22,735 nucleotides of DNA from a virus. The position numbers were made by a program, and so were the translations under genes. The stretch's first letter is position 1, and the number at the start of each line of letters is the position of its first letter. Shown here piece after piece: positions 1,996 through 22,235 of this stretch. The stretch is taken from the IMG/VR virus record IMGVR_UViG_3300037502_001901, positions 1 to 22,735 of that record; one strand, given 5' to 3'. The notes beneath the pieces were generated by a model, which was not told where the DNA came from, did no database searches, and was given only the letters and a program-made list of their open reading frames with translations.

Positions 1996-2729
1996 ATCTG
2001 TTGTATATCCTTTGCAACCACTTGTGCAAATGCTTTGTTATTTAACCTACCAGGATGCAAAAGATCCCTGCCAAGGTCGTGCTGTGTTTTATCCTCAACC
2101 AATGCAATGTATGCATCGGGTTTGTAAACAATCAGCGGTATATTGTGCTGGAGACAAATGCTTCGTATGGCTTCACGATTCTTTTCTGCTGCTAGCTCTA
2201 AGTTAGATTCTTCTAGCAGTAGTTCTTTAACATAAATTCCGCCCCAATTTTTATGATCATATGCCCAGTTTAACACTAGCGGAACATCTTCTTTGACTGT
2301 TTTTAATTCAGTGCGATTGTATCTTGGTTCTAGGTACACAACAAACTTAGGTTTCAATTTAGGAATATAATAGCTAGCAATCCTATAACAGGTATCTCCA
2401 GCTGCACCTGCTGTGCCCAGATTCCAGCAGTCTAGTCCAATCTGTTGCTCCACTAGGGTTGTCCATCTATCCGCTACATTAACACCTGTGCCTTGGGTAA
2501 AACTACAGCCAACAGCCATCCAGTTTTCTCTAGTGTCGAATTCGAGAGTTCTAAAGCCTTCGCTGTTGAACGTGTAATCAATACTAACATCTATCCAGCC
2601 AAACACATCTAACAAATGCCGTTTGTTAGTGTCTTTGTTGTGTGTACGATATGCTTCTTCTGTATCTGGACTTAGCCATTGCAACGTTTTGCCTGCACAC
2701 TCACTCCATTGATGCAACGGCACAGTCAT
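1989..2729 (-). CDS. SGNH/GDSL-hydrolase-like protein
   Basis: 246 residues with an SGNH esterase signature: the block I nucleophile segment AVGCSFTQGTG (S76), block II NLGTAGAAGDT (G105) and the block V catalytic pair D222-L-L-H225 followed by P. The usual block III GxND is not obvious; the corresponding strand reads VVYLEPRYN. The family hydrolyses esters, often acetyl groups on sugars, or lipids. There is no signal peptide, so it would act in the cytoplasm or in the virion. Its ATG overlaps the stop of the radical SAM gene as ATGA, and it overlaps gp17, so the three are translated together. Plausible roles are trimming acetyl groups from surface sugar during entry or modifying a virion component; the sequence does not choose. 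The fold is fairly sure, the substrate unknown. Confidence 0.8.
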   Translation of the reverse strand: MTVPLHQWSECAGKTLQWLSPDTEEAYRTHNKDTNKRHLLDVFGWIDVSIDYTFNSEGFRTLEFDTRENWMAVGCSFTQGTGVNVADRWTTLVEQQIGLDCWNLGTAGAAGDTCYRIASYYIPKLKPKFVVYLEPRYNRTELKTVKEDVPLVLNWAYDHKNWGGIYVKELLLEESNLELAAEKNREAIRSICLQHNIPLIVYKPDAYIALVEDKTQHDLGRDLLHPGRLNNKAFAQVVAKDIQQIC

Positions 2730-3862
2730 AGTAAACCTTTAAACTCTGGCCACAGCTTTTCAAACTGTCCTGCTTGATCTTTGTGGTATTGTGTTTCAAT
2801 TTCTTCTATGTGCTTGGCTAGCTTGCGAGCCATAGCAGGCTTGCTTTCAGTAACAGCTTGATAGTTACGCAATGCTTGATCTAAGAACCCACGGTCAGCA
2901 GGTGTAGCAAGTCCCGATGCATAGAAGCGTTCAATTTCAGCTGCGGCAGGTTCTGCAACTTCTCGACCATGCAAGAATGGGTCCAAGTAGTCAGGTTGAA
3001 ACAAGTTTTGCCACAGCACACTCACGCCTTGGTCAGCAGCAAACTGACGGAACTCTGTGATACGTGTGGCATTGTAGATGTTGTACACAGCATGAATGCC
3101 GCCCCAATGCCCTTGCTTGAACAGGTCTTTGACAACGGCAAGATTGTGTAGTACCTGCTGCCACTCGCCGCCATAGCGAACATATTCAAAACGTTCGCCG
3201 ATGTTGTCAAAGCTCATGCTCCAGCCAACTTTCTTACGCTGTGCTAGCTTTTTAAAGATCTTGTTCTTCTCAAGATCCACGTTCATGTTTGTAATCAGTG
3301 TGACTGTACAATCTTCGGGAATGACATCTAGCAAGCGTTCGTTTTCAGGGAGTAACAAAGGCTCGCCGCCCACCAGTGCGACATCTTTGATATGCTCTTG
3401 GTGTTGCTCCAGGAAATCACACACTTGCTCGTAGTAAGGGCGGCTACCAGACTTGAAAGGAATACCTTTGAGTGCTGACCATTTAGAACTAGCCCACTCT
3501 GAGCAATAGTTACAACTGAGATTACAAGTAGTGTTCCAGCGTACATCTACAATTACAGGATAGTGATACAGTTCGCCAGCGGTTTTGTAATCAAATCCAG
3601 GATTGGTATCATTGTGCCACTTGCGTTCAGAGTCTGCACCAAAGCGTTCTGCTTGCACACAGTTTGAGCAATATTTGTGAGGTTTTCCTTGTGCTAAATC
3701 TGTTCTGATCTCTTTGAGTAGATTGCTATCAAGGATTTCGATAATGCTGTGATCGTTGAGATTACCCAACATGTTTGGGTCACCTGCACAACAAGTTTTT
3801 ACATCGCCACGGGGGTTAATATGCAGCCCACGCCATGGGGCTGCGCAAAAGAAATTGGACAT
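2726..3862 (-). CDS. Radical SAM protein with an N-terminal Cys-rich (twitch/SPASM-like) segment
   Basis: 378 residues. The radical SAM cluster motif CX3CX2C is C113-NLS-C117-NY-C120, followed by the SAM-binding GGEP (165-168) and a TNMN strand (191-194). Before it lies a Cys-rich segment (C6 in CAAPW, C24-C25, C65xxC68) of the kind that holds an auxiliary Fe-S cluster in SPASM/twitch enzymes, here placed N-terminal to the core with a text typical of the family (INPRGDVKTCC, GNLND, IRTDLAQGK). Such enzymes perform radical chemistry on peptides or small molecules. Related proteins of this architecture occur in marine T4-like phages, without a settled function. It is coupled by ATGA to the SGNH-like gene, which suggests a joint pathway. 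The start follows an inverted repeat holding a late-promoter-like core. Fe-S binding is confident; the substrate is unknown. Confidence 0.9.
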   Translation of the reverse strand: MSNFFCAAPWRGLHINPRGDVKTCCAGDPNMLGNLNDHSIIEILDSNLLKEIRTDLAQGKPHKYCSNCVQAERFGADSERKWHNDTNPGFDYKTAGELYHYPVIVDVRWNTTCNLSCNYCSEWASSKWSALKGIPFKSGSRPYYEQVCDFLEQHQEHIKDVALVGGEPLLLPENERLLDVIPEDCTVTLITNMNVDLEKNKIFKKLAQRKKVGWSMSFDNIGERFEYVRYGGEWQQVLHNLAVVKDLFKQGHWGGIHAVYNIYNATRITEFRQFAADQGVSVLWQNLFQPDYLDPFLHGREVAEPAAAEIERFYASGLATPADRGFLDQALRNYQAVTESKPAMARKLAKHIEEIETQYHKDQAGQFEKLWPEFKGLL

Positions 3863-10457: not shown

Positions 10458-11602
10458 CCGTTGGGCGGTGTTGTATTAGTTGTAGCAGAATTGCTAGCGC
10501 CAGATGTAGGGAATGCCCAGCCACTGCCAGTATTGGATATGGCTCTGACTGCCCCTGGAATAGCAGCGTTTGCTGCTGCCACTGCACCAGCTTTGACTTC
10601 GTTGCTCAATGCTTGACCAACATTGACATTCTTAAAGGTGTTGTAGGCTGTGCCTGCTTTTTGTGTGGCACCAATCAAGCCCAGCACCGATCCTGACTGC
10701 AAGTCTTCCAATATTCCACCAGCTGCATCCAGCAAGCCGCCTTGACCCAAGATAGTCTGTGTAGACCCAGCTCGGGAGATAGGACTGGTTCGTGTGTCGT
10801 AGTGTGTAGGATCGCCAAATCCGGGCGCTTGTTTGTTGGGAGCCCCTTGATAATACTTCACTGTTTCGTAGGCAATGGTCATTGAGTTTTGCATAGTGCC
10901 ATTACCTTGACTGTAGTCATAAGTGTCGTGACTCCAGTTTGTGATTAGTGGATTGATCAACACATACTCAGCATACTTGTGCTGATAGTCAAATCCAAAA
11001 ATTCTAATGTCTTTGAAAAATGGTGGCTTGCCTGAACTAGAGCTCACGCCATCGCTGATACTTTCGCCGATGTAGCCCCAGTCGTTAACCAAACGATCGT
11101 TGTTGTAAATGTCACGGCTGTTATATCCAAACCCAGCTGTGCGGTTGGCTAATGCTCCCAAGCTACCGTTGGTATTGTTGGCTGCACCGTATTGTTGTGT
11201 GGGATCTTTGTAGTAGTAACTGTAGTAGTTGTACCACAAATTGCGCATCAAGTCGCCGCCGTCGTCATGAAACGTGATGTTAATTGGTTCGTAGTTAATC
11301 TTGGTCTGTACAATACGCTTGCGATTGTACTGATTCAGTGTTTCTGTTTGAATGTTGTACTTGGGTAGGTCAACAGTCTTGACCACGTAACTGATGTTGT
11401 TGACATCAGTCAGTCCCAATGCACCACGCAGAGAAGGAATCTCGGCGGTGTTAATAGAAAAAGCCACGTGGAATAAAAACTTAAACCGTGGCTTTAATTC
11501 ATAACCGTTGGTTCTGAATACCTTGGCTGCGTGAGTATAATCACGCAGCGTATCGGTACCAAAAAAACCTTTTAGAAAGTCCTGTCCCCAGGTAGCTGGC
11601 AT
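10454..11602 (-). CDS. Second tail-tube-fold protein (gp19/gp48/gp54-like)
   Basis: 382 residues, larger than gp19. The N-terminal half has the tail-tube beta pattern: RFKFLFHVAFSIN, then VVKTVDLPKYNIQTETLNQYNRKRIVQTKINYEPINITFHDDG, and LINPLITNWSHDTYDY with TMQNSMTIAYETVKYY at about 210-255. Residues 280-382 form a Gly/Ala/Ser-rich tail ending SATTNTTPPNG, absent from gp19. T4 has two further tube-fold proteins at the baseplate, gp48 and gp54, that start tube polymerisation; this could be one of them or a tube terminator. Its ATG overlaps the gp19 stop (TAATG), so both are made from one message. The fold is fairly certain; which T4 protein it replaces is not. Confidence 0.8.
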   Translation of the reverse strand: MPATWGQDFLKGFFGTDTLRDYTHAAKVFRTNGYELKPRFKFLFHVAFSINTAEIPSLRGALGLTDVNNISYVVKTVDLPKYNIQTETLNQYNRKRIVQTKINYEPINITFHDDGGDLMRNLWYNYYSYYYKDPTQQYGAANNTNGSLGALANRTAGFGYNSRDIYNNDRLVNDWGYIGESISDGVSSSSGKPPFFKDIRIFGFDYQHKYAEYVLINPLITNWSHDTYDYSQGNGTMQNSMTIAYETVKYYQGAPNKQAPGFGDPTHYDTRTSPISRAGSTQTILGQGGLLDAAGGILEDLQSGSVLGLIGATQKAGTAYNTFKNVNVGQALSNEVKAGAVAAANAAIPGAVRAISNTGSGWAFPTSGASNSATTNTTPPNG

Positions 11603-12237
11603 TAAACGCCTCCGCCACCAGCGCCAGTAACAACGTCACCCAATGTACGTGCAATACCAGTAGCAACACCAACACCATATGGGATTTGGTTAGCGTTGTC
11701 AAAGGCAATTGTCATGTTGATGGTCACAGGAGCTGACTCACTGTAATTCATTGCACCGTAGTCAGCTGCCTTCAAGTAGCAACCATACAGTTCCCAAGTT
11801 TCAAGAACGTTAGGTTGTTCTGCGCCATTGCCACCGTCCAAGATCTCAAAACGTGTCAAGAACTTGTAGTCAATACCAGAACTAGCAGAAGCCATTTCCA
11901 AAAAGTCCATTTGCTTCTGTAGCTGTTCGCCAACCAGTCGGCTGACGTTGCCGCCTGCGTCGTCACGGATTTCGCAAGTGGTGTCTGCCCAGGTGTGCTT
12001 GCCTGCCAACTTCAGTGTTGAGTTGTAGATTGGCAAAGTAATTTCTTCAAAGCTCAAGTTAGGTCGAGCAAAGCTCATGACCTGTTTAGTTAATTCTGTA
12101 CGAGGAGTTGAAATACCAAAATTTTCAAACATCACGCGGAAGCGATATTTGAGCTTGGGCATCAGCAGACCTTGAGTGCTAGAACTCTGATCGCTGGCCA
12201 ACGGTACTGTCATTCTCTGTAATGATGAAACTGCCAT
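11602..12237 (-). CDS. 19: Tail tube protein (gp19-like)
   Basis: 211 residues; T4 gp19 has 163. The beta pattern is that of contractile-tail tube subunits: KYRFRVMFENFG, KQVMSFARPNLSFEEITLPIYNSTLKLAGKHTWADTTCEIRDDAGG, a helix LVGEQLQKQMDFLEM, a strand RFEILDG, then ETWELYGCYLKAADYGAMNYSESAPVTINMTIAFDNA. Hundreds of copies stack as hexamers to make the DNA conduit inside the sheath. It lies 64 bases after gp18, as in T4, with a strong hairpin and a GGTAAATA late-promoter-like element in that gap. AGGAG is about 10 bases before the ATG. The Gly-rich end (GAGGGGV) is flexible. Confidence 0.9.
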   Translation of the reverse strand: MAVSSLQRMTVPLASDQSSSTQGLLMPKLKYRFRVMFENFGISTPRTELTKQVMSFARPNLSFEEITLPIYNSTLKLAGKHTWADTTCEIRDDAGGNVSRLVGEQLQKQMDFLEMASASSGIDYKFLTRFEILDGGNGAEQPNVLETWELYGCYLKAADYGAMNYSESAPVTINMTIAFDNANQIPYGVGVATGIARTLGDVVTGAGGGGV

Positions 12238-19490: not shown

Positions 19491-19498
19491 ACTAAATA
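19491..19498 (+). promoter_or_regulatory. Late-promoter-like ACTAAATA for gp14
   Basis: Plus-strand ACTAAATA ends 8 bases before the gp14 ATG, with no Shine-Dalgarno between. It has the same C-for-A change as the octamer at 409-416 and lies back-to-back with the sigma-70 promoter for the minus strand. Confidence 0.35.
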
Positions 19499-19506
19499 GT
19501 ATTACC

Positions 19507-20823
19507 ATGCCCCGTTTAAGTTTATACCGCCCAAATCGCACAAAAGATTACCAATTCATTGATCGCACAATCAAAGAAATGTACACCGTTGGTGGTGTGG
19601 ATATCTATGTGCACAAATACATGGGCCCACAAACTGGTGGCGAGGATTCGGCATTTTCGGGCAATGCAGATGCTACTCAACCCATTTATGAAACTCAGAA
19701 TCCTCTAAATATACAAGATCTATTGCTGTTGGAAAACCGCGACAGAATCTATGACCAAGACGTGTATGTCATGCGTGGAGTATTTCAGACCCAGGACATT
19801 GATTTTGATCTAAGTCAATTTGGATTGTTTTTGAACAACGATACTTTGTTTATTACATTCCATTACAACAAGATGATTGACGAGTTTGGGCGCAAACTCA
19901 TGAACGGTGATGTGCTGGAAGTGCCTACTCTCAAAGACTACTATCCACTGAATGCCAACATTCCCGAAGCCTTGCCCAAGTACTACGTGATTCAAGATGC
20001 TGCTTTTGCCAGCGAAGGCTTCTCAATGACCTGGCTACCGCACCTATGGCGTGTGAAAGCCACACCGCTGGTCAATGCACAAGAATACAAAGACGTTCTT
20101 AAAAAGCCCATGGTCAACGACACTGCCTGGGATCCGGGTAACTTCTATCCTGCTGGGTCTATTGTTAACCAAGGCGATGTATACTATCAAGCCACTCAAA
20201 ACGTGCCAGCAGACACTGATATTACCGACACTGATTACTGGTCCGAGTACACCCCGTTCACCGAAAGTGACATAATGAGCACTCGTACTAAAGATCAAGA
20301 AATCAACGATGCTATTCTCACACAAGCTGATGTCGAAGTTCCGCTCAGTGGTTACGATGTTGACAAGTTCTTTATTACACCTACCTTGTCATCGAATGGT
20401 CAACCTGCAAACCCAGTGGGCTTGAATACCAGCTCTAGCACAACTGTAGATGGCACCGAAGGTGGTATGAATTCTACACCACGGGACTTTGGTTATACGC
20501 TAGGATACATGACCGGCAATGGTCAGGCACCCGATGGATTCCCTGTCACTCCTGGGGTGACCTTTCCTGAACGTCCAGTAGCTGGGGACTATGCCTTGCG
20601 TCTTGATTACCGACCAAATCGACTGTTCCGTTACAACGGTGTTCGTTGGGTACGCATTGAAGACAATGTTCGAACAGATCTCAACAACGGTCCAGATAAC
20701 AAGACCCTGCGTTCAAGCTTTGTAAATAACAACGCAACCGTTAATACTACAGACCGCGGGCCTATACCTAGTCGCCAAAGTCTTAGTGAAATTCTCAAAC
20801 CCAAAGCCGACAACGGCGGTTAA
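19507..20823 (+). CDS. 14: Neck protein (gp14-like) with an internal chitin-binding-like module
   Basis: 438 residues; T4 gp14 has 256. The opening FIDRTIKEMYTVGGVDIYVHKYMGPQ and the core FGLFLNNDTLFITF, NGDVLEVP, KYYVIQDAAFASEGFSMTWLPHLWRVKATPLVNAQEYKDVL fit the gp14 neck pattern. After the core, residues 204-249 form a compact CBM5/12-like module (WDPGNFYPAGSIVNQGDVYY ... DTDYWSEY), then a linker, and at about 358-380 a G-D-Y...RYNGVRWVRI segment like those in gp18. gp14 caps the filled head and receives the tail. It heads the plus-strand unit gp14-gp15-Nudix. There is no clear Shine-Dalgarno site; a TAAATA element lies 8 bases before the ATG. The gp14 identity is inferred from pattern and neighbours. 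Confidence 0.72.
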   Translation: MPRLSLYRPNRTKDYQFIDRTIKEMYTVGGVDIYVHKYMGPQTGGEDSAFSGNADATQPIYETQNPLNIQDLLLLENRDRIYDQDVYVMRGVFQTQDIDFDLSQFGLFLNNDTLFITFHYNKMIDEFGRKLMNGDVLEVPTLKDYYPLNANIPEALPKYYVIQDAAFASEGFSMTWLPHLWRVKATPLVNAQEYKDVLKKPMVNDTAWDPGNFYPAGSIVNQGDVYYQATQNVPADTDITDTDYWSEYTPFTESDIMSTRTKDQEINDAILTQADVEVPLSGYDVDKFFITPTLSSNGQPANPVGLNTSSSTTVDGTEGGMNSTPRDFGYTLGYMTGNGQAPDGFPVTPGVTFPERPVAGDYALRLDYRPNRLFRYNGVRWVRIEDNVRTDLNNGPDNKTLRSSFVNNNATVNTTDRGPIPSRQSLSEILKPKADNGG

Positions 20824-20825
20824 TT

Positions 20826-20840
20826 AGGAGAGCCAAAATT
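20826..20840 (+). promoter_or_regulatory. Shine-Dalgarno AGGAG and ATT initiation codon of gp15
   Basis: AGGAG (20826-20830) is followed after 7 bases by ATT (20838-20840), which opens the frame whose protein aligns with the gp15 N-terminus. No ATG, GTG or TTG exists in this frame between the gp14 stop and the conserved segment. Confidence 0.65.
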
Positions 20841-22235
20841 CAAAGCTTCTTTTATGACGAGCAAATACGTCGTTTCTTACTGCAATTTACAAGAATCTTT
20901 TCAGGATTCCAAGTGGAGTACGGCCGCAGTGCAGAAAACCCCAACGAGTATGCTCTGTTGCGTGTGCCTGTTCGCTACGGAGATGCAAGCCGTAATGCAC
21001 AGACCATCATACAGGAAAACTCTGCCAACAGCTTGCCTGCTACTCCACTAATGACATTTTACATCACCGGTCTCGACTACGACAGACCAAGAATGCAAGA
21101 ACCGTATTTTGTATCACGCTTTGCTGTGAAACAGCGTACCTATGACACTGCTACCGACACTTATGAGACCACACAGGGCAATGCTTTTACTATTGAGCGT
21201 TTGATGCCCGTGCCTTACAAGATGACCATTAACTTGGACATCTGGACTTCAAACACCAATCAAAAGTTTCAGATCTTTGAACAGATTTCTACCTTGTTTA
21301 ACCCTGCACTGGAAATACAAAGCACTGACAACTACATTGATTGGACCAGCTTGAGTATTGTAGAATTGGAGCGTGTGAACTGGAGTTCTAGAACTATCCC
21401 AATAGGCACAGAGAATCCCGTTGACATAATGACCTTGACTTTTGGCATTCCCATTTGGATCTCTAGTCCTGCCAAGGTCAAGAAGTTGGGTGTTATTGAG
21501 CGTGTGATTGCCAGCATGTACGATGCACAAGGAGATCTGCGTGATGCTGTAACCGACAACGATTTGTTACTGGGAACTCGTCAAGTAATCACACCGTTCA
21601 ACTACAAGACTGTGGTGATTGGCAACAGTGTACAAATTCTTCAAGAACAAACTGTGGTAGATCAGTCTAACTCTAGTCTTGTGCCACCTGACATTGTTAG
21701 TGGCAGTGGCCTGCAATGGCCAGCAGTGATCGGCATGTACGGAGTATTACGCCCAGGTATCAGCCAACTGCGCTTGAGCCAGCCTGACGGATCTGAAGTG
21801 GTTGGCACCATTGTGGTCAATCCCAACGACGAGCGTTTTGTGTTGTTTACTGTGGACGAGGATACAGTGCCACAAAATACCATGCCACCAATTGCTGCTG
21901 TAATTGACCCGTTGCTGAGTGCGCCAGGTGCAGGCCTGCCGGCTGCCGCAACTGGCCAACGCTATCTATTGACTGAAGCCACAGGCGCAGTAGGCAATAC
22001 CAGTCCTGCACCTGCTTGGTTGGGTCCGGCTAATCGTCCGCTGATTGCTAGAGAAAATGACATCATTGAATTCAATGGTCTTTGGTGGGATGTTACCTTT
22101 CACGCTGACCAAGAAACTGATATACAGTATATTACTAATTTAACCACAGGTGTTCAATACGAGTGGACAGGTCAGTCATGGATCAAAAGCTATCAAGGAA
22201 TTTACCCCGGCGGCGAGTGGAGTCTTGTACTGTGA
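20838..22235 (+). CDS. 15: Tail sheath stabiliser/completion protein (gp15-like), probable AUU start
   Basis: 465 residues from the ATT at 20838. The N-terminus (M/I)QSFFYDEQIRRFLLQFTRIFSGFQVEYGR, then EYALLRVPVRYGD, PRMQEPYFVSRFAVKQR, MPVPYKMTINLDIWTSNTNQKFQIFEQISTLFNPALEIQ and IMTLTFGIPIWIS, parallels T4 gp15 (272 residues), which caps the tail and joins it to the head. The first recognised start, GTG at 20913, would remove the first 25 residues, which are plainly part of the family pattern. The C-terminal 200 residues are an extension, with a W-rich end (FNGLWWDVTF, YEWTGQSWIKSYQGI) like the repeated segments of gp18 and gp14. It starts 15 bases after the gp14 stop; its stop overlaps the Nudix GTG (GTGA). 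Confidence 0.78.
   Translation: MQSFFYDEQIRRFLLQFTRIFSGFQVEYGRSAENPNEYALLRVPVRYGDASRNAQTIIQENSANSLPATPLMTFYITGLDYDRPRMQEPYFVSRFAVKQRTYDTATDTYETTQGNAFTIERLMPVPYKMTINLDIWTSNTNQKFQIFEQISTLFNPALEIQSTDNYIDWTSLSIVELERVNWSSRTIPIGTENPVDIMTLTFGIPIWISSPAKVKKLGVIERVIASMYDAQGDLRDAVTDNDLLLGTRQVITPFNYKTVVIGNSVQILQEQTVVDQSNSSLVPPDIVSGSGLQWPAVIGMYGVLRPGISQLRLSQPDGSEVVGTIVVNPNDERFVLFTVDEDTVPQNTMPPIAAVIDPLLSAPGAGLPAAATGQRYLLTEATGAVGNTSPAPAWLGPANRPLIARENDIIEFNGLWWDVTFHADQETDIQYITNLTTGVQYEWTGQSWIKSYQGIYPGGEWSLVL

Follow-up and report, generated by a model that had tools for sequence, protein, structure and literature searches.

A recurrent AUU start signal at the neck genes gp14 and gp15 of large T4-like phages, probably a weak start for low-copy virion parts

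In the phage DNA analysed here the gene of the tail completion protein gp15 almost certainly begins, to judge by its sequence, at the rare codon AUU and not at AUG. An AUU signal of this kind is common to dozens of related phages, with about one per genome, located at gp14 or gp15. The combination of AUU with a Shine-Dalgarno (SD) sequence is a recurrent, family-wide device rather than a one-off. In T4, each virion needs few copies of gp15 and gp14. We conclude that AUU with SD would represent a recurrent, selected and deliberately weak start for low-copy neck genes, and it is likely that the SD-led AUU limits gp15 as one of three interchangeable weak start modes of the gp14-gp15 pair.

The window, that is the whole analysed stretch of 22,735 nucleotides, is a 22.7-kb IMG/VR fragment whose source is a large T4-like myovirus (aquatic bacteriophage). 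Its features relevant here are the following.

Positions 11602 to 12237, minus strand: tail tube protein gene (phrog_4542, E=2.1e-48), with an AGGAG-class SD and ATG, used as internal comparison.
Positions 19492 to 19498, plus strand: late-promoter-like CTAAATA, with the gp14 ATG 8 nt later.
Positions 19507 to 20823, plus strand: gene of a gp14-like neck/virion structural protein (phrog_11591, E=1.1e-80), with ATG and without SD.
Positions 20787 to 20789, plus strand: in-frame stop TGA upstream of the gp15 AUU, closing the gp15 frame.
Positions 20826 to 20830, plus strand: Shine-Dalgarno sequence AGGAG, the first G of GGAG lying 11 nt before the A of ATT.
Positions 20838 to 20840, plus strand: predicted AUU start codon of gp15, aligned with the ATG of relatives.
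Positions 20838 to 22235, plus strand: gp15, tail sheath stabiliser/completion protein, 465 codons counted from AUU.
Positions 20913 to 20915, plus strand: GTG, the first standard start codon in the gp15 frame, at residue 26; an internal Val codon.

The gp15 protein belongs to the T4-like gp15 family, as its match to PF16724 (T4-like tail sheath stabiliser; residues 4-237, E=2.7e-27) reaches 95.9 bits against a curated cut-off of 25 bits. It also matches phrog_11196 (E=3.8e-85) and phrog_227 (E=1.1e-23). The gene order of the window is neck-like gp14, gp15 and a NUDIX gene, and the isolates 121Q, GAP32 and PA5oct have the same order of structural protein, gp15 and NUDIX. The apparent GTG start of the NUDIX gene overlaps the gp15 stop (GTGA, 22232-22235), and this gene is therefore probably translationally coupled to gp15. 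Elsewhere in the window, a radical SAM/SPASM protein gene and an overlapping gene of unknown family (2726-3862 and 1989-2729, both on the minus strand) adjoin the large terminase gene. No tRNA genes were found in the window, nor in 14 other pieces taken from AUU contigs.

The gp14 stop, TAA at 20821-20823, is followed by TTAGGAGAGCCAAAATT, which carries both AGGAG and ATT. Between these two lie 7 nt, AGCCAAA, and ATT is followed by CAA AGC TTC TTT TAT GAC. From the TGA at 20787-20789 up to the GTG at 20913, ATG, GTG and TTG are absent in the gp15 frame. On this arrangement the initial annotation had placed the start of gp15 at the ATT at 20838, 7 nt behind a strong SD, and our analysis bears this out. 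The GTG at 20913 was considered as a start and discarded: the protein would lose its most conserved segment, and the codon varies between Val and Ile among homologues. The residues encoded upstream of it are the most conserved part of the gp15 N-terminus; the motif FYDxQIRR (FYDEQIRR in the window) is nearly invariant among 167 loci. In the ATT loci, pN/pS is 0.16 over codons 2-25 versus 0.87 over the eight in-frame codons before ATT. Because a start at GTG 20913 would lose the conserved FYDEQIRR, and in view of this contrast in constraint, translation should enter at or very near ATT. In the 96% identical relative L110 the first standard start codon appears only at residue 41. The gene thus has an AUU at the homologous start, a strong and well-spaced SD, and conservation of both in relatives, as a non-canonical AUU gene should.

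Sequencing or assembly error, with ATG as the true codon, had been put forward as the main alternative. AUU starts are very rare generally, and a survey of bacteria and archaea counted a single switch from AUG to AUU among 61,358 ancestral AUG starts (PMC5622118). The relatives speak against error, however. L110 and L181, from other assemblies, share about 96% DNA identity with the window around gp15 and show many differences, SNPs among them, yet both keep ATT. An ATG in a close relative, which the initial annotation had held to be decisive against AUU, was thus found in neither of them. ATG stands at the gp15 site only in more distant relatives, for example L129 (78%), and gp15 starts with ATG in the isolates with known hosts (PA5oct, Atu_ph07, Phosso, SCTP-2, 121Q and GAP32).

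In a set made up of the window and 80 gp15 relatives, the aligned start is ATT in ten cases, each with a strong SD. Additional scans, including one targeted at ATT, took the count to 28 distinct gp15-ATT loci, a few ATT loci being near-copies of each other, and GG[A/G]G[A/G] starts exactly 11 nt before ATT in all 28. The start codons of gp14 were ATT in 15 loci, ATG in 105 and GTG in 11. A completed scan for ATT, ATC or ATA before the gp14 N-terminus gave 72 contigs with 32 distinct sites having enough upstream sequence. All 32 were ATT with GGRG at 11 nt, none was ATC or ATA, and the gp14-ATT total is therefore at least 32 loci. The equivalent scan before the gp15 N-terminus gave eight contigs, all with ATT. 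ATT recurs, at constant SD spacing, in 28 loci of gp15 and at least 32 of gp14 drawn from many metagenomes, which leaves the probability of an error close to nil. Two loci are irregular in another way. L065 has ATC at the aligned gp15 start, with no ATG, GTG or TTG and no SD (ggagataatc-ATC), which is either a further non-canonical start or an error. L142 has neither a standard nor an ATT start before the conserved gp15 N-terminus and an in-frame TGA about 4 codons upstream; this anomaly may be an indel.

Could gp15 be reached from gp14 by frameshifting or stop read-through, with ATT merely an internal codon? Such a route agrees with the +2/-1 frame of gp15 relative to gp14 in most ATT loci, but the offset is 0 in L068 and L241 and 1 in L029 and L221, the latter two with another ORF upstream. 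With offsets of 0, 1 and 2, the constant frame and open upstream frame of a programmed gp14-gp15 frameshift were not found, and this mechanism was rejected. Several ATT loci have an in-frame stop 6-9 codons upstream with no standard start between (L068, L241, L282 and L025). The codons upstream of ATT show no coding constraint, and the SD-ATT unit also starts gp14, which is the first gene behind the late promoter. We regard expression of gp15 by frameshift or read-through as very improbable.

The SD-ATT signal is specific for the two genes and occurs there more often than by chance. In 1.15 Mb of gp15 loci, 22 open ORF starts have ATT behind GG[A/G]G[A/G] at spacing 11, and all of them are gp14 or gp15. 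Spacings 7-10 and 12-17 yielded 0-3 each in the same 1.15 Mb, and ATC, ATA and CTG behind GGRGR at spacing 11 gave none. The same specificity was obtained in 278 kb from contigs behind gp15 loci. Six phage contigs (349, 161, 144, 66, 45 and 37 kb, 802 kb in all) each contain the motif GGAGANNNNAAATT a single time, and each occurrence matches the gp14 or gp15 site in sequence. A general use of AUU as start in these phages was rejected, since a scan of the 349-kb relative for AUU genes left none credible besides gp15. The SD-ATG genes of this relative peak at spacing 9-11.

How often has the start codon changed? In a FastTree phylogeny of 161 gp15 proteins, from which the first residues were excluded, ATT requires 19 changes, at least 16 of them forced by supported branches. 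Nearly all these changes are accompanied by gain or loss of the SD and of the gap from gp14. Among 16 independent pairs differing in ATT, the SD co-changes in about 14 and goes in the opposite direction in none (sign test, p ~1e-4), and a gap of at least 11 nt from gp14 co-varies with ATT in about 13 of 15 pairs. Recombination may blur the gp15 tree, so the switch count holds for the gp15 body. The SD-ATT unit itself may have spread by recombination, which would mean fewer origins and leave the association unchanged.

These changes might also be near-neutral drift, a strong SD letting ATG decay to ATT without consequence. Strong SD and weak start codon do co-occur as compensation in bacteria (PMC5622118), and some relatives combine the SD with ATG or GTG (six relatives' loci at gp15; L189 and L194 at gp14). 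The existence of such SD-led ATG and GTG starts at both genes also indicates that low output is not strictly required. Drift, however, should produce GTG, TTG, ATC and ATA too, and no SD-led ATC or ATA was found at gp14 or gp15. It should also hit other SD genes, whereas ATT is restricted to two genes, and the switch to ATT recurred many times. In our opinion drift is an unlikely explanation.

A GIY-YIG-type endonuclease ORF (assigned by PF01541, two ORFs tested) lies exactly at the gp14/gp15 junction in L004, L029, L054, L062, L076, L139, L140, L184 and L221. In L029, L062, L139 and L221 the gp15 SD is inside the 3' end of this ORF and the gp15 start is ATT, so that insertion or loss of the endonuclease gene may have driven some of the switches. 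The sequence AGGAGANNNAAAAUU could be primarily a binding site, for example of a translational repressor made by the phage or of the junction endonuclease, with the start codon inside the recognised sequence. The invariant spacing, the use of AUU only and the A-rich positions -3 to -1, conserved in two unrelated genes, would fit such a site, as would a GIY-YIG ORF at the junction in about nine relatives, its 3' end carrying the SD in some. But the motif starts gp14 as well, most ATT loci are without a junction endonuclease gene, no repressor was identified, and SD, spacer and start can explain all conserved positions; a primary role in binding is quite unlikely. As to the weak SD-led start that we prefer, low output alone does not explain the strict AUU (not AUC or AUA) and the invariant 11-nt spacing. 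Both features may reflect descent from a small number of ancestors by recombination, or an additional recognition step.

The position of the start codon differs with its type in both genes. In 54 of 56 loci with a gp15 ATG, this codon is found -1 to +11 nt from the stop of gp14, frequently in the form TAATG, and the ATT of gp15 lies at least 11 nt from that stop in 27 of 27 measured, some with an inserted ORF between. In 88 of 104 loci the ATG of gp14 follows TAAATA at a distance of 4-8 nt, and 3 of the 104 have an SD. The ATT of gp14 follows TAAATA at 17-23 nt in 12 of 14 loci, and all 14 have an SD. The T4 late promoter consensus TATAAATA spans -13 to -6, and phage Aeh1 has CTAAATA (PMC1524935). 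With a promoter in this position, ATGs 4-8 nt behind it would coincide with the mRNA 5' end or be no more than about 4 nt from it, and by analogy the late mRNA of the gp14-ATG loci is probably leaderless or nearly so. The late-promoter-led genes of the window and of two relatives form two classes, one with at most 7 nt and without SD, the other with at least 15 nt and mostly with SD; no promoter-to-start distances fall between them. Leaderless-type starts were found on other late genes too, besides gp14. The tail tube gene of the window has the upstream region taggagatataaaaa-ATG, with an SD of the same class as at gp15, and the tube genes of relatives likewise pair an AGGAG-class SD with ATG.

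The pattern in the sequences, together with its recurrence and the features that vary with it, leads us to infer initiation at AUU itself, a low output and IF3 sensitivity. Host ribosomes would initiate gp15 de novo at AUU, where the strong and optimally spaced SD (AGGAG-N7-AUU) would place fMet-tRNA. The strong SD would render AUU usable and the weak codon would limit output; gp15, which caps the tail in few copies, would thereby be made far less than the high-copy tail tube, which has the same SD with AUG. One alternative mode would be re-initiation at an SD-less ATG that overlaps or adjoins the gp14 stop, the other a leaderless start at a 5'-terminal ATG directly behind the late promoter. 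SD with AUU would set a low stand-alone rate where gp15 is uncoupled from gp14 or where gp14 has a leader. AUU probably serves, then, to keep low-copy neck and tail parts scarce. The suggestion that gp15 is made sparingly finds indirect support by analogy, as the tube gene pairs its SD with ATG and AUU with a strong SD gives about 10% of the AUG output in S. aureus (PMC13009471). The suggestion that gp15 is held below gp14 needs recasting, since in many relatives gp14 starts at AUU as well; it is the neck proteins that contrast with the tube, and gp14 and gp15 act as a pair.

In E. coli, IF3 acts against initiation at non-canonical codons, on leaderless mRNAs and by SD-less re-initiation (PMC2268962). 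All three start modes are weak, and in that species IF3-sensitive, so IF3 may be their common control, and by this analogy IF3 control of the gp14 and gp15 starts is plausible. A more far-reaching version, which we offer as tentative and rather doubtful, is that gp14-gp15 are kept IF3-sensitive by SD with AUU, leaderless AUG or SD-less re-initiation, with typically one dedicated AUU gene per genome and host IF3 limiting tail completion. If true, the host IF3 level would time or limit tail completion during infection. No phage-encoded IF3 (PF00707) was detected in seven phage contigs of 66-354 kb. Autoregulation of the infC type was rejected, the gp15 product being PF16724 and not IF3.

Well-documented AUU starts are few: infC, pcnB and cvfC1. 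No phage gene with an AUU start was found reported in the mainly open-access literature covered. In this one phage family there are dozens of natural AUU starts and at least 16 switches, together with matched ATG relatives and a comparison with the tube gene. This is a natural experiment on the trade-off of start codon, SD and coupling, and on the setting of virion stoichiometry. Gene callers limited to ATG, GTG and TTG would shorten AUU-started genes by up to about 40 residues.

The annotated start of E. coli pcnB was checked and is AUU. This weak start is reported to limit a protein needed in small amount (Binns and Masters 2002). Unlike the phage genes, pcnB is a single bacterial gene without alternation with coupled or leaderless starts. 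E. coli infC resembles gp15 in having AUU behind a strong SD (TTGGAGGAATAAGGT-ATT in MG1655), conserved in relatives, and its AUU is known for weak, IF3-sensitive initiation (PMC5472188). It differs in that it encodes IF3, autoregulates and has a spacing of 13 nt, whereas the phage neck and tail genes have 11 nt and switch repeatedly between ATT and ATG. The genes cvfC1 (AUU) and ccpN (AUA) of Staphylococcus and Bacillus also have a strong SD and a conserved non-canonical start, with about 10% of the output of AUG (PMC13009471). These, however, are bacterial genes with an extended SD; in the phages the SD is a plain AGGAG, and the start switches among related phages. A further comparison is with the coupled gp14-gp15 of the isolated jumbo phages 121Q, GAP32 and PA5oct, where the orthologous gp15 lies between a neck-like gene and a NUDIX gene as in the window, but its ATG overlaps or abuts the upstream gene.
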